A DNA stretch of 64,000 bases, from contig NZ_SLXG01000006.1 of assembly GCF_004345725.1 (NCBI RefSeq), forward strand, positions 1 through 64,000, read 5' to 3'. This DNA is from Crenobacter luteus (GTDB taxonomy: Bacteria; Pseudomonadota; Gammaproteobacteria; Burkholderiales; Chromobacteriaceae). The translations under genes and the position numbers were made by a program. Every line of letters starts with the position of its first letter. The stretch's first letter is position 1. Below the pieces are notes generated by a model. That model ran no database searches. It was not told the DNA's origin and worked only from the letters and a program-made list of their open reading frames with translations. Shown here piece by piece: positions 195 through 61,156 of this stretch.

Positions 195-223
195 GGTTGG
201 CCGAGCCTGCGGCTCGGCCAACC
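195..223. repeat. Inverted pair of the GGCTCGGCCAACC element upstream of corA
   Basis: Two perfect 13-base arms (195-207 and 211-223) separated by TGC form a stable hairpin. Each arm is one copy of the element dispersed through the window. No gene reads into this hairpin from the left, because the promoter at 31-66 fires away from it, so it is not an obvious terminator. Apart from the hairpin and the promoter, I see nothing else recognisable in 1-321. Confidence 0.8.
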
Positions 224-321: not shown

Positions 322-1293
322 ATGCTGATCAATTGCGCCGCCTACCAGGACGGCAGGAAACTGGCGGATATTCCGCAAACCGCGATCCGCGACTACGTGC
401 GACGGCCCGATTGTTTCGTCTGGGTGGCGCTGCGCGACCCGGAGGTCGTCGAGCTGGAGGCGATGCGCGAGGAATTCGGCCTGCACGAACTGGCGGTCGA
501 GGATGCGCATAACGGCCATCAGCGTCCGAAGATGGAGGAGTACGGCGACATGCTGTTCGTCGTCGTCCATCTGCTCGAGATCGGCGCCGCCGGCCAGGTC
601 CGGGTCGGCGAGGTCGACATTTTCGTCGGCGCCAACTACGTGCTGTCGGTACGCAACCGCTCGAACGTCGGCTTCCTGAACGTGCGCGACCGCTGCGAGC
701 GCGAACCGCATCTATTGAAGTTCGGCTCGGGCTTCGTGCTGTACGCGCTGATGGACGCGGCGGTCGACCGCTACTTCCCGGTGATCAACGCGCTCGAGCA
801 GGAGCTGGAGCAGATCGAGGACGGCATGTTCACCAAGGAGAACTCGGCGCGCGACAACATCGAGGCGCTGTACGCGCTCAAGCGCAAGCTGACCCTGGTG
901 CAACACAGCACGACGCCGCTGCTGGAGACGGTGCACAAGCTGTTCGGCGGCCGCGTGCCGCAGGTGTGCGTCGGCATGCACGAGTACTACCGCGACATCT
1001 ACGACCACCTGGAGCGGATCGTGAAGCAGGTTGAAGCGCTGCGCGACATGCTGAATACCGCGATCCAGGTGAATCTGTCGCTGATCTCGCTCGATGATTC
1101 GGCGATCACCAAGAAGTTCGCCGCCTACGGCGCGCTGTTCGCGATGCCGACCATGGTCGCCGGCATCTACGGGATGAACTTCGAGGCGATGCCGGAATTG
1201 CGCTGGACCTACGGCTACCCGCTGGCGCTGGCGGCGATGCTCGGGCTGGACGTGTTGCTGTGGCGACGCTTCAGGCGCGCCGGCTGGATCTAG
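322..1293 (+). CDS. corA: CorA-family magnesium/cobalt transporter
   Basis: The 323-residue protein is a CorA-type inner-membrane channel that takes up Mg2+ (and Co2+/Ni2+) as a pentamer. Most of the chain is the acidic and helical cytoplasmic funnel. The two membrane segments are at the extreme C-terminus, and the family signature YGMN sits at about residues 283-286, at the end of the first, followed by a short periplasmic loop and a second segment ending in a basic tail (WRRFRRAGW). I chose the ATG at 322 because AAGGAGGA lies just upstream (308-315); an in-frame start at 277 would add 15 residues with no ribosome site. It stands alone and converges on argJ. Confidence 0.93.
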   Translation: MLINCAAYQDGRKLADIPQTAIRDYVRRPDCFVWVALRDPEVVELEAMREEFGLHELAVEDAHNGHQRPKMEEYGDMLFVVVHLLEIGAAGQVRVGEVDIFVGANYVLSVRNRSNVGFLNVRDRCEREPHLLKFGSGFVLYALMDAAVDRYFPVINALEQELEQIEDGMFTKENSARDNIEALYALKRKLTLVQHSTTPLLETVHKLFGGRVPQVCVGMHEYYRDIYDHLERIVKQVEALRDMLNTAIQVNLSLISLDDSAITKKFAAYGALFAMPTMVAGIYGMNFEAMPELRWTYGYPLALAAMLGLDVLLWRRFRRAGWI

Positions 1294-1390: not shown

Positions 1391-2605
1391 TCAGCTGCGG
1401 TAGTCGGCGTTGATGCGCACGTAGTCGTAGGAGAAGTCGCAGGTCCATACGGTGGCGGCCGCTTCGCCGCGGCCGAGCACGACGCGCACGGTGATCTCGG
1501 CCTCGTTCATCACGCGCTGGCCGTCTTCCTCTTTATATTCCGGGTTGCGGCCGCCGTCGCGGGCGACCAGCACGTCGCCCAGGTAGAGCTCGAGGCGGTC
1601 GACGTCGAGGTCGGTGACGCCGGCGTAGCCGATCGCCGCCAGGATGCGGCCGAGGTTGGGGTCGGACGCAAAGAAGGCGGTCTTGACCAGCGGCGACTTG
1701 GCGATCGCGTAGGCGACGGCCTTGCACTCGTCGCGCGACCGGCCACCCTCGACGGTGACGGTGATGAACTTGGTCGCGCCCTCGCCGTCGCGCGCCATCG
1801 CCTGCGCCAGCTCGACGGCCACCTCCAGCAACGCCGCCTTGACCGCCTGGTAGGCGTCGTTCGCTTCGCTGATCAGCGGCAGCTCGCTCTTGCCGGTCGA
1901 GATCAGCATGAAGCTGTCGTTGGTCGAGGTGTCGCCGTCGACGGTGACGCAGTTGAACGACTGGTCGGCGACTTCCTTCACCAGCTGCTGCAGCAGCGGG
2001 CGGGTGATCGCCGCGTCGGTGGCCAGGTAGCCGAGCATGGTCGCCATGTTCGGGTGGATCATGCCCGAGCCCTTGGCGATGCCGGTGACGGTGACGGTGT
2101 GGCCGTCGATCTCGATCCGGCGGCTCGCCGCCTTCGGCAGCGTGTCGGTGGTCATGATCGCCTCGGCGGCGTCGGCCCAGCCCGCCGCGCGGCGGGTCGG
2201 CAGCGCGGCGACGATCTTGTCGGCCGGCAGCGGCTCGAGGATCACGCCGGTCGAGAACGGCAGCACCTGTTCGACCTCGCAGCCGATCTCGTCGGCCACC
2301 GCCTGGCACACCGCCAGCGCGCGCGCGCGGCCGTCTTCGCCGGTGCCGGCGTTGGCGTTGCCGGTGTTGACCACCAGCGCGCGGATCTGCACGCCGGCGT
2401 CGAGGTGGCGCTTGGCGATCTGCACCGGCGCGGCGCAGAAGCGGTTCTGGGTGAACACGCCGGCGACGGTGTTGCCCTTGTCGAGGCGGATCACCAGCAC
2501 GTCCTTGCGGTTCGGCTTCTTGACGCCGGCCTCGGCGACGGACAGCTCGACGCCGGCGACCGGGAACAGTTTGGCGGGGTCGAGGGCGGGAAGGTTGACG
2601 GCCAT
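1391..2605 (-). CDS. argJ: Bifunctional ornithine acetyltransferase / N-acetylglutamate synthase
   Basis: ArgJ (404 residues) moves the acetyl group from N-acetylornithine to glutamate and so recycles it in the arginine pathway. The bifunctional form can also acetylate glutamate from acetyl-CoA. The diagnostic self-cleavage motif is clear: [11 protein letters not shown] at residues 181-191. In the family the precursor cuts itself between Ala188 and Thr189, and Thr189 becomes the nucleophile of the beta chain. Length is normal (about 400). The start has AGGAG upstream. It lies 51 bases downstream of recQ on the same strand and may be read with it; no other arg gene is nearby. Confidence 0.95.
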
Positions 2606-2656
2606 GACGGGACTCCTGTCGTTGTTATCTTTAAGCAGCGTTCGATGGTAGCAGAA

Positions 2657-4465
2657 TCAGCCGGCCGCTTCGCGCGCCTCGGCCAACAGCGCCAGCAGGG
2701 CGTCGCCGTAGCGGGCGAGCTTGAGTTCGCCGAGGCCGTAGATGCGCGCCAGCGCCGGCAGAGAGTCCGGGCACTGTTCGACCAGCTCGCGCAAGGTGCG
2801 GTCGTTGAACACCGCGTAGGCCGGCACGTTGTGCGCGTCGGCGGTCTCCTTGCGCCACGCGCGCAGCGCCTGCCACAGCCGCTCCTCGCGCTCGGTGCGC
2901 AGCCAGCGCTCGGCCGCGTGCACGGTCTTGGCGCGCGCGTCGTCGACCGGCGGGCGCAGGAAGACCTTCTCCTCGCCCTTGAGCACCGGCCGGCAGGCGT
3001 CGGTCAGCAGCAGCCGCTGGCCGCGGCTCATGTCGACCTCCAAGAGCTTCTTGCCGACCAGCTGACGGATGAAGCCGCGCCAGGCGCGCTTGTTGTAGTC
3101 GCGGCCGACGCCGTAGGTCGGCAGCTTGTCGTGGCCGGTCTGGCGGATCAGCTCGGTGTCGGCGCCGGTCAGGATGTCGACCACGTGGCCGGCGGCGAAG
3201 CGCTGGCCGCTGCGGTAGACCGCCGACAACAGCTTCTGCACCGGCACGGTCGCGTCGAAGGTGATCGGCGGGCTGACGCAGTTGTCGCAATGGCCGCACG
3301 GTTCGCGGCTCTCGCCGAAGAAGGCGAGGATGTGCTGGCGGCGGCAGGCGGCGGTTTCGCAGAAGCCGAGCATCGCGTCGAGCTTGGCCAGCTCGACCTG
3401 CTTTTGCGCGGCGGACATTTCGCCGCCCTCGATCATCTGCGCCAGCTGCACCAGGTCGTTGAGGCCGTAGCACAGCCAGCTGGCCGCCGGCAGGCCGTCG
3501 CGGCCGGCGCGGCCCGACTCCTGGTAGAAGTTCTCCGGGCTTTTCGGCAGGTCGAGGTGGGCGACGAAGCGCACGTCCGGCTTGTCGATGCCCATGCCGA
3601 AGGCGACGGTGGCGACCATCACGATGCCGTCCTCGCGCAGAAAGCGGCGCTGGTGGGTGTCGCGAATCTCGTGCGACAGGCCGGCGTGGTAGGGCAAGGC
3701 GTTGATGCCCTGCTCGGCCAACCATTCGGCGGTGTCTTCGACCTTTTTGCGCGACAGGCAGTAGACGATGCCGGACGCGCCGGCGTATTCGCGACAGATG
3801 AAGTCGAGCAGCTGCTTCTTCGCGTTGTGCTTTTCCACCACCTGGTAGAACAGGTTCGGGCGGTCGAAACTGGACAGGAAGGTCTTGCCCGCGTCGAGCT
3901 TCAGGTAGTGCAGGATGTCGGCGCGCGTCTGCTGGTCGGCGGTCGCGGTCAGCGCGATGCGCGGCACCTCGGGAAAGCGCTCGGCCAACAGGCCGAGCTG
4001 CTGGTATTCGGGGCGGAAGTCGTGCCCCCAGTGGCTGACGCAGTGCGCCTCGTCGATCGCGAACAGCGCGATCCGCGGCAGGCCGTCGAGGAAGTCGAGC
4101 ATGCGCGGCGTGACGAGGCGCTCGGGCGCGACGTACAGCAGTTTCAGCACGCCGGCCTTGGCGTCGAAAGCGATGCGGCGCGCCTCGTCCGGCGGCGTGG
4201 CCGAATTGAGGCAGGCGGCGGCGACGCCGAGCTCCTGCAAGGTGGCGACCTGGTCCTGCATCAGCGCGATCAAGGGCGAGACGACGATGGCGACGCCGTC
4301 GCGCAGCAGCGCCGGAATCTGGAAGCACAGGCTCTTGCCGCCGCCGGTCGGCATCAGCACCAGCGCGTGGCCGCCGTCGGCGACCTGGGCGACGATGTCG
4401 GCCTGCTGGCCGCGGAAGGCCGGGTAGCCGAAGACCTGATTCAGTAGGGTAAGGGCGTCTTGCAT
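2657..4465 (-). CDS. recQ: ATP-dependent DNA helicase RecQ
   Basis: RecQ (602 residues) is a 3'-5' helicase acting in RecF-pathway recombination and fork repair. Motif I (PTGGGKS, about 39-45) and motif II (DEAH, 138-141, in [18 protein letters not shown]) are intact. Helicase lobe 2 carries the arginine-finger region GRAGRDG. A four-cysteine zinc cluster follows ([10 protein letters not shown] through CGHCDNC), then a winged-helix RQC region and a C-terminal HRDC domain (about 525-600). Length and order match E. coli RecQ. Three copies of the dispersed element lie inside it, each read as Leu-Leu/Trp-Leu-Ala-Glu with TTG. Confidence 0.96.
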
Positions 4466-5077: not shown

Positions 5078-5851
5078 ATGAAACGAGTGGTGTTCAATCA
5101 GAAAGGCGGGGTCGGCAAGTCGACCATCGCCGTCAACCTCGCGGCGGCGGCCGCCAAGACCGGCCGCCGCGTGCTGGTGGTCGACCTCGACCCGCAAGGC
5201 AACGCCAGCGGCTACCTGCTCGGCGCAAGCGACGGCGACGCGACCTCCGGCGTCGCCGGTTTCTTCGCCGACCAGCTGACCATCAGCCTGTACCAGAAGG
5301 CGCCGCGCGACTTCGTCGTCGCGACGCCGTTCGAGAACCTGTTCCTGATGCCGTCGCACGCCGAACTCGACGAGCTGATGGGCAAGCTCGAGGCGCGCTA
5401 CAAGATGTTCAAGCTCAAGGAAGCGCTCGACGCGCTCGCGGCCGAGTTCGACGAGATCTGGATCGACACCCCGCCGTCGCTGAACTTCTACACCCGCTCG
5501 GCGCTGATCGCCGCCGACCGCTGCCTGATCCCGTTCGACTGCGACAGCTTCTCGCGCCAGGCGCTGTACAAGCTGCTCGACAACGCCGGCGAGATCCGCG
5601 CCGACCACAACCCGCGCCTCGCGATCGAGGGCATCGTCGTCAACCAGTTCCAGCCGCGCGCCAGCCTGCCGGCGCAACTGGTCGCCGAGCTCGAGGACGA
5701 GGGCCTGCCGGTGCTGCCGGTCCGGCTGTCGAGCTCGGTAAAGATCCGCGAATCGCACCAGCTCGCGCGTCCGATGGTGTTCCTCGACGCCCGCCACAAA
5801 CTGGCCGAGGAGTACGCCGCGCTCTACCAGCACCTGCACGGCGCGGCCTGA
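5078..5851 (+). CDS. ParA/MinD-family ATPase (orphan, no ParB)
   Basis: A 257-residue deviant-Walker ATPase. Residues 9-16 are KGGVGKST with the signature lysine at the start of the motif, followed by VDLDPQGNAS (switch I) and WIDTPPSL (Walker B region). Such proteins position DNA, chemoreceptor arrays or other cargo by dimerising on DNA in an ATP-dependent way. No parB or parS-like site follows, so this is not a standard plasmid or chromosome partition pair. I chose the ATG at 5078, after AGACAGGA; the frame is also open to 5042. The small lipoprotein gene precedes it. The cargo is unknown. Confidence 0.85.
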   Translation: MKRVVFNQKGGVGKSTIAVNLAAAAAKTGRRVLVVDLDPQGNASGYLLGASDGDATSGVAGFFADQLTISLYQKAPRDFVVATPFENLFLMPSHAELDELMGKLEARYKMFKLKEALDALAAEFDEIWIDTPPSLNFYTRSALIAADRCLIPFDCDSFSRQALYKLLDNAGEIRADHNPRLAIEGIVVNQFQPRASLPAQLVAELEDEGLPVLPVRLSSSVKIRESHQLARPMVFLDARHKLAEEYAALYQHLHGAA

Positions 5852-5870: not shown

Positions 5871-5907
5871 ACGGCTCGGCCAACCTTCAGGGTTGGCCGA
5901 GCCGTTT
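5871..5907. terminator. Bidirectional terminator made of an inverted element pair
   Basis: ACGGCTCGGCCAACC, a short loop and GGTTGGCCGAGCCGT form a stem of about 15 bases, preceded by AAAAAA and followed by TTTT, so it can end transcripts in both directions. It sits between the converging parA and mlaA. Each arm is a full copy of the dispersed element. Confidence 0.9.
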
Positions 5908-5927: not shown

Positions 5928-6752
5928 CTAGCGCGATGCGGCGGCGCCCGCGTCGGACACCGACACGACGCCGGCGCGACCCGGCGTCTGCGCGCCGTCG
6001 CTCGCGCCGGCCGGCGGCGTCGATTCCTCCATCAGCTGGTCGAGGTCGAGGTCGTCGTCGCGGCTGGCCGGCGGCGCGACGCCGATCTCGCGCGCCCTGA
6101 GCTGCAGGTAGCCGTCGCGCACGAAGGAGTACGGGTCGAGCGCCGCCTCGTCGACCGTTTCCTCGAGTCCGAGGTAGCGTTCGCGGGTGCTGACGCCGTT
6201 GAGCACGCCGGCGACGGTGGCGCGCGTTTCGGTGCCGAAGGCGTGGCGGTAGGGATCGGCGGCGAAATAGGCGGCGGCGCCGAGGCCGTCGCGCACCGTC
6301 GACGGGCCGAGGATGGGCAGCACCAGATAGCTGCTGTGCTTCCAGCCCCAGCTGGCGAAGGTGTCGCCGAGCGTGTTCTTGTTGCTGACGAGCCCGGCCG
6401 GCGTCGCGACGTCGAGCAAACCCGCCAGGCCGAAGGTCGTGTTGAGGCTGACGCGCATGATGTCGTTCAGCGCCTTCTGGACGTCGACGCGCAGCAGGTT
6501 GCTGATCGCGCTGTAGGCGTCGAGCCAGTTGTTGAAGAAGTTGCCGACGCCGGTGCGCACCGGCTGCGGCGCGATCGCGCGGTAACCCTCGGCCACCGGC
6601 TTGACCACCGCCCGGTCGGCGGTGTCGTTGAAGCGGTAGACCGCGCGGTTGAACGGCTCGAACGGATCGTGCGGGTTGGCCGGCGCGCTCGCGCAGCCGC
6701 CCAGCAGCAGGACGGCGAGCCCGGCGACGGCCAGCAGTCGGCGCGCGCTCAC
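5928..6752 (-). CDS. mlaA: Outer-membrane lipoprotein MlaA (VacJ)
   Basis: MlaA is the outer-membrane component that removes misplaced phospholipid from the outer leaflet and hands it to MlaC. The 274-residue protein has a lipoprotein signal ending LLLGGC (Cys20) and the family core beginning DPFEPFNRAVYRFND, then helices with the typical NFFNN and GLLDVAT segments. Its start is a GTG (6752-6750) that overlaps the stop of mlaB as GTGA, implying coupled translation; an upstream in-frame ATG would lie inside mlaB. The C-terminal tail (DDDLDLDQLMEE) is acidic and probably disordered. It is the last gene of the mla operon. Confidence 0.93.
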   Translation of the reverse strand: MSARRLLAVAGLAVLLLGGCASAPANPHDPFEPFNRAVYRFNDTADRAVVKPVAEGYRAIAPQPVRTGVGNFFNNWLDAYSAISNLLRVDVQKALNDIMRVSLNTTFGLAGLLDVATPAGLVSNKNTLGDTFASWGWKHSSYLVLPILGPSTVRDGLGAAAYFAADPYRHAFGTETRATVAGVLNGVSTRERYLGLEETVDEAALDPYSFVRDGYLQLRAREIGVAPPASRDDDLDLDQLMEESTPPAGASDGAQTPGRAGVVSVSDAGAAASR

Positions 6753-12167: not shown

Positions 12168-13226
12168 ATGTCTTTGCCAGCCACTTTGTCGCAGACCCGC
12201 TTCGCCGCGCTGGGCGTGCTGTCGGTCGCCCTCGTCTGGGGGCTGATGTGGGCGCCGTTCCGCTTCCTCGCCGAGGCCGGCGTCTCGCCGCAGCTGTCGT
12301 CCTTCCTCGTCTACAGCATGGTGTCGCTGCTCGGCGCGGCGCTGTTCTGGCGCGTGTTCCGCGCGCACTGGCGGCTAACGCCGCATCTGGCGATCCTCTT
12401 GCTGGCCTTCGGCTGGACCAACTTCGGCTACACCAAGGCGATGACCGACGGCGAGGTGATGCGCGCGCTGTTGCTGTTCTACGCTTCGCCCTTGTGGGGC
12501 GCGCTGTTCTCGTGGTGGCTGCTGAAGGAGACGCTGACGCGGATCGGCTGGGCGGTGATCGCGGTGTCGCTGGCCGGCGTCGTCGCCATCCTGTGGCAGC
12601 CCGGAGCCGGCGGCGGCGCCTGGCTGTCCGAGCCGTACGAATGGATGGCGCTGACCTCGGGCATGGCCTTCGCGTTCGGCCAGGTGGTCAGCCGCCACGC
12701 GCGCGCGCTGCCGCCGCCGGTCAAGTCGTCGACGATCTGGCTCGGCACCGCGGCGCTGGGCCTGGCGCTATCGGGGGCCAACGGCGAGCTCGCGCGCGTC
12801 GCGACCATCGACGCCTGGCACTGGGCGGTGCTCGTCCTGCTGGCGGTGTCGCTGTTCTGCACCAGCGTGGTGTCGCAAGCCAGCCTCGCGATCCTGCCGG
12901 CCAACCAGGTGATCACGCTGATGCTGACCGAGCTGGTGTTCGCCGCCTTGTCGGCCTACGCGATGGCCGGCGAGACGATGAGCGCCAACGAATGGCTCGG
13001 CGGCGCGCTGATCGTCGGCGCCAGCCTGTTCTCGGGCCGGATGAGCAGCAAGCCGGCGCCGCTCGAAGTCGCGCCGCCGGCCGAGCTGGCGCGCTGCGGC
13101 GAGGCGGACCCCGCCGACGCGCCCGAGCCCGAGCCGGTCGCGCCGGCCACCGAGCCGCCGCCGGTGATCCGCCGCCGCAACATCGAAGGCGAGTCGACCC
13201 GACCGCGCGGCCTGCGCCGGCGCTGA
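12168..13226 (+). CDS. EamA/DMT-family transporter with a cytoplasmic tail
   Basis: A 352-residue inner-membrane carrier of the drug/metabolite transporter superfamily with two EamA repeats and about ten membrane segments (first at residues 12-32, last near 270-290). The substrate cannot be read from the sequence; relatives export amino acids, nucleotides or drugs. After the last membrane segment comes an unusual tail of about 60 residues that is rich in Pro, Glu and Ala and ends in a basic stretch (RRRNIEGE then RPRGLRRR). It stands alone and divergent from dapC, with a TACAAT-like -10 at about 12130. Confidence 0.88.
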   Translation: MSLPATLSQTRFAALGVLSVALVWGLMWAPFRFLAEAGVSPQLSSFLVYSMVSLLGAALFWRVFRAHWRLTPHLAILLLAFGWTNFGYTKAMTDGEVMRALLLFYASPLWGALFSWWLLKETLTRIGWAVIAVSLAGVVAILWQPGAGGGAWLSEPYEWMALTSGMAFAFGQVVSRHARALPPPVKSSTIWLGTAALGLALSGANGELARVATIDAWHWAVLVLLAVSLFCTSVVSQASLAILPANQVITLMLTELVFAALSAYAMAGETMSANEWLGGALIVGASLFSGRMSSKPAPLEVAPPAELARCGEADPADAPEPEPVAPATEPPPVIRRRNIEGESTRPRGLRRR

Positions 13227-13256: not shown

Positions 13257-13294
13257 AAAGGCTCGGCCAACCTCGCCAGGTTGGCCGAGCCTTG
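13257..13294. terminator. Bidirectional terminator made of an inverted element pair
   Basis: AAAAGGCTCGGCCAACCT, a short loop and AGGTTGGCCGAGCCTT form a long stem with flanking A and T runs. It separates the converging EamA gene and slyX. Both arms are full copies of the dispersed element. Confidence 0.9.
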
Positions 13295-13308: not shown

Positions 13309-13512
13309 TCAGTAGTGCGGCGGGATCTCGTGCTGCGGCGCATTGCCTGCCGCGTCCGGGCTCTGGTTCTGCAGCATCCGGTAGAGGATGCGCATCTGGT
13401 CCTGCAGCAGCGACAACTCCTGCTGCTGGCGCGCGACCGTCTGGTTGAGCGCGTCCAAGAGCTCGTCCTGGAAGGCGAGCCTGACCTCGAGCTCGTCGAT
13501 GCGCGATTCCAT
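13309..13512 (-). CDS. slyX: SlyX family protein
   Basis: A 67-residue coiled-coil protein with the SlyX pattern: an N-terminal ESRIDELEVRLAFQDELLDA followed by LNQTVARQQQE and a short Pro/His tail (IPPHY) typical of the family. The molecular role of SlyX is not known. It is the small single-gene unit between the EamA exporter and the antiporter gene. Confidence 0.9.
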   Translation of the reverse strand: MESRIDELEVRLAFQDELLDALNQTVARQQQELSLLQDQMRILYRMLQNQSPDAAGNAPQHEIPPHY

Positions 13513-15863: not shown

Positions 15864-18131
15864 ATGCGCCTCACGCCCCTGCCGCTGGCCGCGCTGATCG
15901 CCGGCCTGCTGATCGTCGCCTTCCTGCCGGCGCTGCCCGACTGGCGGCTCGCCGTCGGCGCCGCCGTGGCGGCGGCCGCGGCGGCGAAGCGCTGGCAAAC
16001 GACCGCCACGGCGCTGGCGCTGTTCGCGCTCGGCGTCGGCTGGGCGGCGTGGCGCGCCGAGACGAGGTTGGCCGAGGCGCTGCCCGCCGCGCTCGAGGGC
16101 GTGCCGCTGGGCGTCGCCGGGACGGTGCGTGGCTTCGCGCAAGCGCGGGACTGGGGCAGCCGCCTGGTGTTCGACGTCGAGACGGCCGAGGCGCCGTTGC
16201 CGTCGCGGCTTTTGCTGTCCGACTACCACGGCGGCGACTGGCCGCCGGGCAGCCGCTGGCGGCTCACCGTCAAGCTCCGGCGCGCGCACGGCACGCTGAA
16301 CGACGCCGGCTTCGACGCCGAGGCGTGGCTGTGGTCGGAGGGGCTGCTGGCGACCGGCACCGTCGGCCGGGGCCGGCAGCGGCTGGCCGACGCCCGCGAC
16401 CCGCTCGCGCGCGTCGACCGCGTGCGCGACGCGCTGTGGCAACGCATCCGCGCGACGCTCGGCGACACGCCGGCCGCCGCGCTCGTCGGCGCGCTGACGG
16501 TCGGCCAGCAGCAGGCGATCGCGCCCGCGCAGTGGCGGCAGTTCGCCGCGACCGGCCTCACCCATCTGGTGTCGATCTCGGGCCTGCACGTGACGCTGCT
16601 GGCGGCGCTGGTCGGCGCGCTCGCCTACCGGTTCGGCTGCCTGCGTCCGTCGCCGCGTGCGCCGCCGCGCGTGCTCGCGACGCTGGCGGGCCTCGCGGCG
16701 GCCTGCGGCTACGCGCTCCTGGCCGGCTGGTCGGTGCCGACGCAGCGCAGCCTCTACATGCTCGCCGCCTTCGGCCTCGCCCTGGTCGCCGCGCGCGGCC
16801 TGTCGGCGTGGTCGGCGTGGAGCCTCGCGCTCGCGGCGGTGCTCGCGATCGACCCCTTCGCCGCGCTCGCACCCGGCCTGTGGCTGTCGTTCGGCCTCGT
16901 CGGCGCGCTGCTCGCGCGCAACGTCGGACGGCGCGCGCCGCGCGGCAAGGCAAGGGGCTTCGCCGACGCGCAGTGGGCCGCCTCGCTGGCGTCGGTCGCG
17001 CCGCTGGCGGCCTTTTTCGGCAGCCTGCCGTGGGTCTCGCCGCTGGCCAACGCGGTCGCGATCCCGCTGGTCTCCGGCCTGTTGACGCCGCTGGCGCTCG
17101 CGGCGCTCGCGCTGCCCTTCGACGCGCCGCTCGTGGCGGCCGGTATGTTGGCCGAGGGCTTTCTCGCCGCCGTCGACGCGGCCTCCCGGCTGCCGGCCGT
17201 CACGCTCGCCGCCGCGCCGTGGCCGCTCGTCGCGCTCGCGCTGGCCGGCACCGCCTGGGCGCTCGCGCCGCCCGCGGTGCCGGGCCGCGTCTTCGGCCTC
17301 GCCTGCGTCGTGCCGCTGCTCGCCTACCGTCCGGCGGCGCCGGACGATGGCCACTTCCGCGCGCGCCTCGTCGACGTCGGCCAGGGGCTGGCGCTGCTGG
17401 TCGAGACGCGCCGCCACGCGCTGCTGTACGACACCGGTGCGGGCGAGGCCGCTCGGACGCTCGCGCCGGCGCTCGCCGGCTGGGGCGTGGACGCGCTCGA
17501 CGCGCTGGTGCTGTCGCACCACGACGCCGACCACGACGGCGCGGCGGCGAGCCTCGTCGCACAACTGCCGGTCGCGCGGCTCTACGCCGGCCAGCCGGAG
17601 ACGACGCGGGCGCTGCCGCTCGCGGCCGCACACTGCGCCGACGGGCTCGCATGGGACTGGGACGGCGTGCGCTTCGCCTTCCTGACCCCCGGCGCGCCGC
17701 CTGACGCCGGCGACAACGCGAAAAGCTGCGTGCTGCGCGTCGCCGCGCGCGACGGCGCCGCGCTGCTCGTCGCCGGCGACCTGCCGGCCGAGCGCGAGGC
17801 GGCGCTGGTCGAGAAGCACGGCGGCGCGCTCGACAGCACGGTGCTGGTCGTGCCGCACCACGGCAGCCGCACCTCGGGCAGCGCGGCGCTGCTGACGGCC
17901 GTCGCGCCGCGCTGGGCGTGGATAGGCGTCGGCTACCGCAACCGCTACCGCCATCCGCATCCGGGCGTGCTCGCGCGGCTGGACGGGCTCGGCGTCCGCG
18001 TCGCGCGCAGCGACCGCGACGGCTCCCTCGAATGGCACAGCGACGCGCCGGACGCGCTCGGGCGCGCCGCCGAGCGGCACGCGCGCTACTGGCGGCTGAC
18101 GCGCCGCGACGACGCCACGGCGGCGCGCTGA
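15864..18131 (+). CDS. comEC: DNA-uptake channel protein ComEC/Rec2
   Basis: ComEC forms the inner-membrane channel through which one strand of captured DNA enters the cell in natural transformation. The 755-residue protein has N-terminal membrane segments, an OB-like soluble domain (about 60-170), the multi-spanning Competence domain (about 195-460, with LTHLVSISGLHVTLLAALVG), and a C-terminal metallo-beta-lactamase-like domain. That domain starts near residue 493 with LVDVGQGLALLVE and carries the metal motif SHHDADHDG near 550. Length and order match full ComEC/Rec2. No clear ribosome site precedes the ATG, and CATAAT ends only 6 bases before it. Two copies of the dispersed element are inside and an inverted pair follows the stop. 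Confidence 0.95.
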   Translation: MRLTPLPLAALIAGLLIVAFLPALPDWRLAVGAAVAAAAAAKRWQTTATALALFALGVGWAAWRAETRLAEALPAALEGVPLGVAGTVRGFAQARDWGSRLVFDVETAEAPLPSRLLLSDYHGGDWPPGSRWRLTVKLRRAHGTLNDAGFDAEAWLWSEGLLATGTVGRGRQRLADARDPLARVDRVRDALWQRIRATLGDTPAAALVGALTVGQQQAIAPAQWRQFAATGLTHLVSISGLHVTLLAALVGALAYRFGCLRPSPRAPPRVLATLAGLAAACGYALLAGWSVPTQRSLYMLAAFGLALVAARGLSAWSAWSLALAAVLAIDPFAALAPGLWLSFGLVGALLARNVGRRAPRGKARGFADAQWAASLASVAPLAAFFGSLPWVSPLANAVAIPLVSGLLTPLALAALALPFDAPLVAAGMLAEGFLAAVDAASRLPAVTLAAAPWPLVALALAGTAWALAPPAVPGRVFGLACVVPLLAYRPAAPDDGHFRARLVDVGQGLALLVETRRHALLYDTGAGEAARTLAPALAGWGVDALDALVLSHHDADHDGAAASLVAQLPVARLYAGQPETTRALPLAAAHCADGLAWDWDGVRFAFLTPGAPPDAGDNAKSCVLRVAARDGAALLVAGDLPAEREAALVEKHGGALDSTVLVVPHHGSRTSGSAALLTAVAPRWAWIGVGYRNRYRHPHPGVLARLDGLGVRVARSDRDGSLEWHSDAPDALGRAAERHARYWRLTRRDDATAAR

Positions 18132-18133
18132 TC

Positions 18134-18153
18134 CTCGGCCAACGTTGGCCGAG
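18134..18153. repeat. Perfect palindrome of two fused uptake-element copies
   Basis: CTCGGCCAACGTTGGCCGAG is a 20-base perfect palindrome formed by two element copies head to head without spacer, two bases after the comEC stop codon. Confidence 0.85.
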
Positions 18154-35426: not shown

Positions 35427-36194
35427 TCACAGTCTCACCTCGATGCCGGCGGCGCGCATCGCCTCCTTGGCCTCGCGCACGGTGTGCTCGCCGAAGTGGA
35501 AGATGCTGGCGGCCAGCACCGCGTCGGCGTGGCCCTCCTTGACGCCGTCGACCAGGTGCTGCAGCTTGCCGACGCCGCCCGAGGCGATCACCGGGATGTC
35601 GACCGCGTCGGACACCGCGCGCGTCAAGGGCAGGTTGAAGCCGATCTTGGTGCCGTCGCGGTCCATGCTGGTCAGCAGAATCTCGCCGGCGCCCAGCTCC
35701 TGCATCTTCTTGGCCCACTCGACCGCGTCGAGCCCGGTCGGCTTGCGGCCGCCGTGGGTGAAGATCTCCCAGCGGTCGTTCTCGGGCGTCACCGCCTTGG
35801 CGTCGATCGCGACGACGATGCACTGGCTGCCGAAGCGGTCGGCCGCGTCCTTGACCAGCTGCGGGTTGCTCACCGCGGCGGTGTTGATCGACACCTTGTC
35901 GGCGCCGGCGTTGAGCAAGCGGCGGATGTCGTCCACCTTGCGCACGCCGCCGCCGACGGTCAGCGGGATGAACACTTGCGAGGCGACCGATTCGATCACG
36001 GAGAGGATCAGGTCGCGGTCGTCGGAGCTGGCGGTGATGTCGAGGAAGGTCAGCTCGTCGGCGCCTTCGTCGTTGTAGCGGCGCGCGATGTCGACCGGGT
36101 CGCCGGCGTCGCGCAGCCCTTCGAAATTGACGCCCTTGACGACGCGACCGGCGGTCACGTCGAGACAGGGGATGATGCGTTTGGCCAGTGCCAT
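35427..36194 (-). CDS. hisF: Imidazole glycerol phosphate synthase, cyclase subunit
   Basis: HisF (255 residues) is the TIM-barrel half of imidazole glycerol phosphate synthase, using ammonia from HisH. The catalytic aspartates are in the conserved [15 protein letters not shown] (near residue 11) and VVAIDAK (about 130), and phosphate-binding glycines lie in SGGVG. The gap between it and hisA contains the paired repeat at 36221-36252. Confidence 0.97.
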
Positions 36195-36220
36195 AGACTT
36201 CTCTTCCTCAATAAGGCGCG

Positions 36221-36252
36221 GCTTGGCCGAGCCGCCACGGGCTCGGCCAAGC
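36221..36252. repeat. Inverted uptake-element pair in the hisA-hisF gap
   Basis: GCTTGGCCGAGCC (36221-36233) and GGCTCGGCCAAGC (36240-36252) are separated by a 6-base loop. hisA and hisF are on the same strand, so this hairpin lies inside the his transcript and could reduce expression of the downstream genes. Confidence 0.8.
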
Positions 36253-36266
36253 TCGCCCTCGCCGGC

Positions 36267-37010
36267 TCAGTCGGCCGACAGTTCGTCGGCCAGCGACTGC
36301 GCCTCGGCGAACTGGATGCTGCCTTCGTAGATCGCGCGGCCGGTGATCGCGCCCTCGATGCCCTCGTCCTCGACCGCGCACAGCGCGCGCACGTCGTCGA
36401 GGTTGCTCAGGCCGCCCGACGCGATCACCGGGATGGTCAGCGCCTGCGCCAGCTTGACGGTGGCGTCGATGTTGACGCCGTTCATCATGCCGTCGCGACC
36501 GATGTCGGTGTAGATCACCGACACGACGCCGTAGTCCTGGAAACGGCGGGCCATCTCGATCACGTTGTGGTTGGTGACCTTGGCCCAGCCGTCGATCGCG
36601 ACCATGCCGTCCTTGGCGTCGAGGCCGACGATGACCTGGCCCGGAAACGCGTCGCACGCGTCGTGCAGGAAGCCGGGGTTCTTCACCGCGGCGGTGCCGA
36701 TGATCACGTGCTTGAGACCCATGTCGAGGTATTTCTCGATCGTGTCCAGGTCGCGGATGCCGCCGCCGAGCTGCACCGGCATGTCGTCGCCGACCTCGGC
36801 GAGGATGTCGCGGATCACGGGCAGGTTCTTCGGCTTGCCGGCGAACGCGCCGTTCAGGTCGACCAGATGCAGGCGGCGCGCGCCCTGCTCGCGCCAGTGC
36901 AGCGCGACCTTGACCGGGTCGTCGGAGAATACGGTGGCGTCGTCCATCACGCCTTGCTTGAGGCGGACACATTGACCGTCTTTGAGGTCGATAGCGGGGA
37001 TCAGCAGCAT
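36267..37010 (-). CDS. hisA: ProFAR isomerase
   Basis: HisA (247 residues) isomerises the sugar of ProFAR, the step that feeds HisH/HisF. It is a half-barrel-duplicated TIM protein like HisF. The conserved start [20 protein letters not shown] (catalytic Asp near residue 8), the middle [11 protein letters not shown] and the phosphate-binding VIASGGLSN are visible. Confidence 0.97.
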
Positions 37011-60579: not shown

Positions 60580-61095
60580 ATGAATGCTCCGCTTCCCGAC
60601 GCAGGCCTCGCGCGCCGGCTCGCCAGTCTCGCCTACGAAAGCCTGCTGGTCGGCGCGCTGCTGCTGGTCGCCTCGGCGCTGATCACGCCGCTGCTGACCG
60701 CGCTCGGCCCCTCGCTGTTCGCCACCCTGCTGTCGCAGGGCTTTTTCGCTACGGTGCTGTTCGCCTACTTCGGCTGGTGCTGGGTCAGGGGCGGGCAAAC
60801 GGTGGCGATGAAGACCTGGCGCATCCGGCTGGTCGACGCCGACGGCCTGACGCTGCGCTGGCGCGGCGCGCTGCGCCGCTTCGCGATCGCGCTCGGCCTC
60901 TACGTCGGCCTGCCGGCGCTGTCCTACCTGGGCCTCGCCCGCCACGACGGTAGCCTCGGCCAACATCTGGCGATCGCGCTGCTGTGGTGGCTGCTGCTGC
61001 CGCTGTCGGCGTGGCTGGACCCCGAGCGACGCTTCCTGCACGACCGCCTGGCCGGCACGCGCCAAGTGCTGACACCGAAAAAACCCCGCGGCTGA
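60580..61095 (+). CDS. RDD-family membrane protein
   Basis: A 171-residue protein with three to four hydrophobic segments, a short N-terminal LARRLASLAYESLLV stretch that resembles the RDD motif (with Glu where Asp is usual), and the later TVAMKTWRIRLVDADG that is typical of the family. Function is unknown; some relatives are Na+/H+ antiporters. It is divergent from ilvI, with a TAGAAT-like -10 at 60547-60552. Confidence 0.8.
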   Translation: MNAPLPDAGLARRLASLAYESLLVGALLLVASALITPLLTALGPSLFATLLSQGFFATVLFAYFGWCWVRGGQTVAMKTWRIRLVDADGLTLRWRGALRRFAIALGLYVGLPALSYLGLARHDGSLGQHLAIALLWWLLLPLSAWLDPERRFLHDRLAGTRQVLTPKKPRG

Positions 61096-61130: not shown

Positions 61131-61156
61131 CGGCTCGGCCAACGTCGGCCGAGCCG
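61131..61156. repeat. Near-palindrome of one intact and one mutated uptake element
   Basis: CGGCTCGGCCAACGTCGGCCGAGCCG has one full copy and one copy with a single change (GTCGGCCGAG), just after the RDD gene. Confidence 0.75.

Follow-up and report, generated by a model that had tools for sequence, protein, structure and literature searches.

To our knowledge, DNA uptake words of the kind considered here have been described in detail for only two bacterial families, and the papers we draw on present the subject likewise. In the Neisseriaceae the uptake sequence (DUS) is a 10-mer of the GCCGTCTGAA type whose CTG core, at positions 6–8, is common to eight dialects (PMC3630211), and pairs of DUS copies form terminators (PMC3630211, PMC1852404, PMC2397512). 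Kingsford and others assigned about 55% of terminators in Neisseria and 17–29% of those in the Pasteurellaceae to element pairs (using a program other than ours), argued, as we do below, from position, tails, orientation and the scarcity of direct pairs, and proposed reuse of the word for both the DUS and the Pasteurellaceae USS (PMC1852404); the remark in an initial annotation of the present DNA that Neisseria DUS and Haemophilus USS are used alike agrees with this. Laribacter, Lutiella, Pseudogulbenkiania and two Chromobacterium genomes are reported in PMC3630211 to be without an obvious DUS. The family to which our DNA belongs is probably the one that holds these genera, and the sister family of the Neisseriaceae. 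Several of its genera do indeed lack the word described here, CTCGGCCAAC, which came to notice in a 64,000-nucleotide stretch of one genome (the window, meaning the whole stretch analysed). Sequence comparison leads us to regard it as probable that CTCGGCCAAC works like a DNA uptake sequence and that facing pairs of it after stop codons are reused as intrinsic, often bidirectional, terminators.

Abundance of the word

Counts were made in 464 kb of the genome to which the window belongs (G000; the 64-kb window plus 400 kb) and in G001, another genome of the same genus, from which 400 kb were used, 864 kb in total. CTCGGCCAAC is found 263 times in the first sample, against 3.7 copies expected from an order-2 Markov model, and 200 times in the second, against 2.7, enrichments of 72- and 73-fold, and in both genomes it has the highest observed/expected ratio of all 10-mers with at least 40 copies. 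Over the whole genomes there are 1,590 copies in G000 and 1,940 in G001 (23 and 21 for the reversed word, used as a control), which places the word, like uptake sequences, among those with hundreds to thousands of copies, well above expectation; the other 59 genomes of the family have only 13 to 165. The word is weakly extended to gGCTCGGCCAACCTt. That it might simply be common to high-GC relatives was considered and rejected, as its 12-mer form occurs 465 times in G000 and 0–9 times per genome in the other 398 genomes searched in this taxonomic order (G001 was not included). Five 10-kb intervals lie more than 6 GC points under the genome mean, all of them in G001, and these hold a mean of 0.8 copies compared with 5.6 in the other 81. 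Such scarcity is the pattern expected of newly acquired DNA, and base composition pushes the same way, a GC-rich word being expected to be rarer there. L022–L024 and L032–L033 of G001 are low in GC, contain few called genes and almost lack the word; they are likely to be acquired islands.

The two strands are used about equally genome-wide (802/788 and 984/956 in the two genomes), with only mild imbalance in 70-kb blocks. This balance bears on the idea that the word is a chromosome-maintenance motif (a Chi-, KOPS- or nucleoid-protein-like site) whose pairing is incidental. Dispersed, clade-specific short motifs of such kinds do exist, but Chi and KOPS are unlike a word balanced between strands, and a maintenance role would not account for inward pairs being so frequent at the ends of genes (see below), so that we think this explanation improbable.

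Paired sites in the window

Pairs are called inward (+−) when arranged CTCGGCCAAC..GTTGGCCGAG, with the AAC ends inside, and outward (−+) when arranged GTTGGCCGAG..CTCGGCCAAC, with the AAC ends outside; spacing is measured from start to start. The six sites of the window that had been singled out as head-to-head pairs (Table 1) do each contain two facing copies, exact at 195, 5871, 13257 and 18134 and imperfect at 36221 and 61131, and all fold as hairpins (−13.9 to −32.5 kcal/mol). At 195, 5871 and 13257 the predicted RNA has a loop of 3–4 nt between exact 10-mers in both arms. The A/T tails noted in the initial annotation at 5871 and 13257, between converging genes, are present: T6 leftward and T4 rightward at the former, and TTTTAT leftward with a weaker tract rightward at the latter. 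Reading the pairs in general as terminators holds only in part. The spacing of the pairs, their T tails and how far they lie from the stop codon fit terminators, but a T tail is missing from four of the six sites, and those that face outward (195 and 36221) are not of the terminator kind in this genus; 5871 and 13257 are the only sites in the window of the inward 17–20 bp form described below. The pair at 18134 follows the stop codon of comEC by 2 bp and faces a gene for an outer membrane efflux protein (Pfam), and beyond it lies a separate, element-free hairpin with a T run as read from this minus-strand gene. The variant pair at 36221 (gap 36195–36266) apparently sits within an operon, its neighbours being genes that we take to be hisA and hisF.

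Table 1. Facing copies of the word and associated genes in the window.
Feature	Position	Strand	Form	Genes around the site	Assignment
Outward pair GGTTGGCCGAGCC..GGCTCGGCCAACC	195..223		13-bp stem; no T tail	5' of CorA-like gene, 322–1293 (+)	
Inward pair	5871..5907		17 bp apart; A/T tracts on both sides	Convergent: ParA-type ATPase, 5078–5851 (+); MlaA, 5928–6752 (−) (Pfam)	Predicted bidirectional intrinsic terminator
Inward pair	13257..13294		18 bp apart; A/T tracts	Convergent: EamA transporter, 12186–13226 (+); SlyX, 13309–13512 (−) (Pfam)	Predicted terminator
comEC-like gene	15864..18131	+			DNA-uptake channel (Pfam Competence, DUF4131, metallo-beta-lactamase)
Inward pair, loopless exact palindrome	18134..18153		Spacing of 10 bp; no T tail		
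Outward pair of one-mismatch copies CTCGGCCAAG	36221..36252		One mismatch in both arms; no T tail	His_biosynth, 36267–37010 (−) and 35427–36194 (−) (Pfam)	
Inward palindromic pair	61131..61156		One mismatch in one arm; no T tail	Called genes end at 61095 (+) and 61232 (−); faces amidohydrolase (Pfam)	

Pairs in the two genomes of the genus

Pairs, defined as neighbouring copies within 30 bp with at most one mismatch in total, were counted over the 864 kb, a non-random choice covering 16% of the first genome and 12% of the second. Genes were called with a home-made codon scorer rather than taken from a standard annotation, and the called coding fraction in G001 is low (0.76 and 0.85), the shortfall lying largely in low-GC stretches. 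The count omits 36221 (two mismatches) and files 195 as coding, the window having no gene to its left. It gave 44 inward, 20 outward and five direct pairs. Intergenic inverted pairs number 56 against 2.7 expected (summed mean of 300 random placements per segment), and within the window four against 0.23; no direct pair has both copies intergenic, one of the five straddling a gene end and four being coding. The inward pairs comprise 26 in convergent gaps, 14 tandem, none divergent and four coding, and the outward pairs seven, eight, one and four (195 among these last), respectively. As convergent gaps make up 18% of intergenic bases, the excess of inward pairs there is very strong (binomial p = 1e-10). 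Per 10 kb of intergenic DNA, inward pairs amount to 11.4 where the gap is convergent, 1.8 where it is tandem and 0 where it is divergent, compared with 5.2, 3.2 and 0.4 for single copies (37 intergenic: 12 convergent, 24 tandem and one divergent), so the proposal that pairs are enriched at gene ends beyond the single-copy density survived in these samples (convergent vs the rest, Fisher p = 0.006). The corresponding comparison of divergent gaps with the rest gave no significant difference (p = 0.48). By a looser yardstick, perfect inverted repeats of at least 9 bp with loops of up to 12, the window has 32, and each of five order-1 resamples has 9–19. With this base composition inverted repeats are thus not in themselves unusual, and it is the shared sequence that is the non-chance part.

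The form expected of an intrinsic terminator, a GC-rich hairpin followed by a T tract 3' of a stop codon, is found in inward pairs with a spacing of 17–20 bp and not in most inward 9–12 bp or outward pairs. The 27 pairs of the 17–20 bp class (19 convergent and eight tandem) have a median ΔG of −27.8 kcal/mol and lie at a median of 21 bp past a stop; 25 have a T tail (at least five T in 7 on at least one side), and in 16 there are at least four on both sides, including 15 of the 19 convergent pairs. In six of the eight tandem pairs the tail is on the side that the gene reads into. By comparison a tail is present in one of the 12 inward pairs spaced 9–12 bp (mostly loopless palindromes), in none of the five inward pairs at other spacings (at least five T of 7), in 4/20 outward pairs and, for the 37 single intergenic copies, on one side in two and on the other in one. 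The T tail thus belongs to the inward 17–20 bp form, which fits a predicted intrinsic, often bidirectional, terminator. In a plain hairpin-plus-T scan (made without shuffles) an element pair forms the candidate terminator in 28 of the 144 intergenic regions that have one, and in 22 of 65 when only convergent gaps are taken. A tailed hairpin of a variant, CCCGGCCAACC..GGTTGGCCGGG, was also seen in L075 at about 12.2 kb between convergent called genes, and may represent the element in a diverged or alternative version.

Palindromic pairs could instead be operators, i.e. binding sites for a dimeric protein, and many of them are indeed loopless (12 inward and eight outward with a spacing of 9–12); the loopless class could be of this kind. 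As an account of the pairs in general we judge it unlikely, since none of the 40 intergenic inward pairs is in a divergent (promoter-only) gap and the 17–20 bp class lies about 21 bp past stops with its T tails on the side read into.

Turnover was followed through 98 reciprocal best protein matches between the G000 and G001 samples, allowing one mismatch per arm and up to 130 bp from the stop. An inward pair is found downstream in both genomes for four genes (three junctions, one of them seen from both sides), in G000 and not G001 for three (two of which are one junction, the third being a 32% match and perhaps no orthologue) and in G001 and not G000 for four (two at a doubtful 35–36% identity); at some of the remaining orthologous gene ends there is a switch to single or outward forms. 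The EamA/SlyX junction (13257) has an inward pair with a different loop in each genome. At the comEC junction of G001 no copy of the element was found within 130 bp, and an ordinary hairpin with a T run is present there in both genomes. With inward pairs partly shared and partly gained or lost, single terminators are not strongly conserved.

Copies inside genes

Most copies lie inside genes, 201/263 in G000, where about 91% of bases are coding, and 123/200 in G001, where 76–85% are. In G000, 120 of the 124 antisense genic copies are in one frame, reading Leu-Ala-Glu, and TTG is the leucine codon in 162 of 277 Leu-Ala-Glu compared with 1,126 of 16,074 leucines overall. The suggestion that coding copies merely reflect protein sequence was rejected, as TTG accounts for only 13/158 in Leu-Ala-Asp and 11/464 in Leu-Ala-Ala of the same genome (Leu-Ser-Glu is also somewhat raised, at 8/41). 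Samples from four element-free genomes have TTG in 6/58 Leu-Ala-Glu, and in genomes with a TGC form of the word (TGCGGCCAAC, see below) the TTG excess is at Leu-Ala-Ala (21/138 and 35/189) with none at Leu-Ala-Glu (1/51 and 0/71). Genic copies are therefore maintained at the DNA level, by synonymous codons. An orientation bias within genes has also been reported for known uptake sequences (PMC2346458).

These figures bear on a further explanation, that the word is a family of terminator hairpins or REP-like repeats with no role in uptake, the single copies being broken or half elements. The tailed hairpins of the window's genus are well formed, as such a family would have them, and genes hold fewer of the copies than the proportion of coding bases would predict; nevertheless 201 and 123 copies do sit within genes, in fixed frames and kept there by synonymous codons. 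This explanation also meets the existence, in related genera, of an abundant form of the word that goes without terminators (the TTC form described in the next section; 404 exact copies in 900 kb, with 18 inverted pairs of which two are tailed), and we consider it very unlikely. The initial annotation took the pairs to double the evidence for uptake. They do not add such independent support, since a repeat that folds into a hairpin might have spread purely through its use as a terminator.

Dialects in related genera

The comparison used 40-kb samples from nine other genera plus one additional genome. G003, G005 and G006 have TTCGGCCAAC as their top 10-mer, and G004 has TGCGGCCAAC; TTCGGCCAAC ranks sixth among the seven 10-mers listed for G002, and G010 has 13 copies of it, with a different repeat in first place. 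In the samples of G007, G008, G009 and G045 there are one to nine copies of CGGCCAAC, without clear preference in the preceding bases. CGGCCAAC is the core common to CTCGGCCAAC, TGCGGCCAAC and TTCGGCCAAC, the next bases being most often CT, and the three words are dialects of this one core. Other repeated words seen in these genomes are TGGTGTTGTT in G010 (L163–L164) and TCCAGTACAG/TGTACTGGAA in G004 (L151–L152). Over the 61 genomes of the family that were searched, the three dialects largely follow clades. TGCGGCCAAC has 1,871 to 2,895 copies in every one of the 13 genomes of a single genus, g4, the remaining 48 genomes having 8 to 58, and TTCGGCCAAC (the TTC dialect), scattered over five genera, has 183 to 2,168 copies in eight genomes (G003, G010, G006, G005, G002, G011, G012 and G018) against a background of 78 and 77 in the window's genus and 8 to 62 in the other 51. 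Only one of the ten genomes of genus g6 has the TTC dialect (G006, 1,368 copies), the rest being at background, which could possibly reflect loss, gain or misfiling of this genome. Taken with the low TTCGGCCAAC counts of G018 (183; genome 84% complete) and G012 (579), this pattern indicates that some lineages have lost or acquired the word or exchanged it for another.

Pairing was compared between dialects. Three g4 genomes (540 kb, 348 exact copies of their word) have 50 inverted pairs, 41 of them intergenic compared with 3.6 expected. Tails are found there in 4/21 inward and 11/29 outward pairs (inward and outward, respectively: 1 and 5 in G004, 2 and 4 in G068, 1 and 2 in G071), whereas in the window's genus they are found in 26/44 inward and 4/20 outward pairs, so that the orientation of tailed pairs is reversed (Fisher p = 0.0001 on the tailed counts). 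Among the 18 inverted pairs of the five TTC-dialect genomes, 14 are intergenic compared with 1.6 expected. Since pairs exceed chance in this dialect too, where tails are rare, the pairing suggests another cause besides termination, or tails that are easily lost. The dependence of tailed pairs on dialect fits a secondary role as terminators, and from the abundance of the TTC dialect without terminators, together with the opposite orientation in two genera, we infer that the dispersed word came first and that terminator use looks secondary to it. The view in the initial annotation that the element is co-opted agrees with this contrast between dialects, which points to the pairs being a reuse of an abundant word.

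Uptake machinery

The window itself carries a ComEC-like gene that presumably belongs to the uptake machinery (Table 1). Each of the 11 genomes searched has ComEC, but so do 10 of the 14 control genomes. The closest named ComEC among 32 loci is that of Paludibacterium purpuratum (48%); none of these 32 loci from named genomes is rich in CTCGGCCAAC (0 or 1 copy each), and a search for the pair pattern in named genomes returned 0 stretches, near relatives possibly being absent from the set. The Paludibacterium match, taken with the presence of the DUS-rich family in the same order, points to Chromobacteriaceae, as defined in GTDB, as the family of the window. G000 and G001 both encode a ComP-type minor pilin (Pfam ComP_DUS, PF16732, above the cut-off), whose best PDB matches are ComP-type chains. 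A profile built from three Neisserial ComP segments, one of which matches solved ComP at 8.5e-34, finds it at 1.3e-15 in G000 and 2.3e-14 in G001. The receptor known for the neisserial DUS thus has a homologue by PF16732, PDB and profile matches alike, and binding of the word by it is predicted. At E ≤ 1e-3 the profile finds a match in 23/23 element-bearing and 28/38 element-free genomes (Fisher p = 0.009), with median scores of 36.7 and 31.9 bits (p = 0.0002), both tests ignoring shared ancestry; some element-free genomes score high (G007, 47.8 bits), and PF16732 matches were found in ten of ten genera. With the ComP homologue, PF16732 and ComEC found in element-free or control genomes as well, presence alone says little and none of them is specific.

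A tree of ComP_DUS proteins was also built but is weak. It has 39 rows, five of 43 loci being absent (L094, L112, L171, L175 and L176) and one G001 protein added by hand. Its long branches are rows L101, L103 and L113, each of them translated in a wrong frame or taken from a neighbouring gene. Although a 15-row PilE-like group is supported (95/92), 11 of the 36 inner branches are open and the ComP-like rows stay without resolution in the 39-row tree, so the putative orthology to Neisserial ComP rests on profile and PDB scores rather than on the tree.

Discussion

On the reading that we prefer, the approximately 1,600 copies, which are mostly single, would mark the species' own DNA, and a ComP-type minor pilin would probably recognize the word before import via ComEC. 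Where two copies face each other after a stop codon with their AAC ends inward, the RNA would fold into a short-looped hairpin whose GC-rich stem measures at least about 11 bp, and the outer A/T tracts would provide a U tract for one or both directions of transcription, making an intrinsic terminator at which transcription would be expected to stop. The role in uptake would have come first and that in termination second. Support for uptake comes less from the pairing than from the clade dialects, the ComP homologue (which is non-specific), the strong synonymous-codon bias within genes and the few copies in the five low-GC intervals. On balance we also favour a wider proposal, namely that a family of uptake-sequence dialects with a CGGCCAAC core, differing in the two bases before it and recognized by orthologues of ComP, is present in the neighbouring family of the Neisseriaceae, from which the DUS was reported missing, and that at least two genera came to use the pairs as terminators independently, with the orientation of one opposite to that of the other.

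If this is correct the known dialects gain a third set, whose core is unrelated but whose pilin is homologous, and from which one might learn which ComP residues set the word that is recognized, and it opens the question of how a word comes to be replaced across a whole genome. With genera that do and do not use the pairs as terminators, and with opposite orientations, the order of events (uptake, then terminator) becomes testable. Paired-word terminators were already known for the DUS and USS, and what is new is the set of CGGCCAAC-core dialects of this family. We found no earlier report of an uptake sequence for Chromobacteriaceae, Crenobacter or Vogesella in open-licence PMC main texts, although the table of 10-mers from Laribacter and Chromobacterium in PMC3630211 might hold an earlier sighting; among the matches listed for the 10-mers themselves in open-licence PMC papers, none is on uptake, judging by titles and the starts of abstracts.

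The closest described system is the DUS of the Neisseriaceae. Like it, the word described here is a 10-mer with about one to several thousand copies, has dialects that vary by a few bases round a fixed core, is accompanied by a ComP-type minor pilin, rarely forms direct pairs, and has inverted pairs that are enriched between convergent genes, bear A/T tails and favour the inward orientation. It differs in that tailed pairs are mostly outward in g4 and rare in the TTC dialect, and in its core, which is CGGCCAAC and lacks CTG. That CTCGGCCAAC is itself a DUS dialect was rejected, as CTG is found on neither strand of CTCGGCCAAC, TGCGGCCAAC or TTCGGCCAAC; GCCGTCTGAA itself has 8 copies in G000, compared with 1,863–4,285 in four DUS-rich genomes (among 250 searched in the same taxonomic order). 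The resemblance to the USS of the Pasteurellaceae is that of an abundant dispersed word doubling as inverted-pair terminators, with preferred spacings and an inward bias (PMC1852404), whereas the sequence is unrelated and the predicted receptor is a different pilin, PpdA/ComN (PMC12616744).
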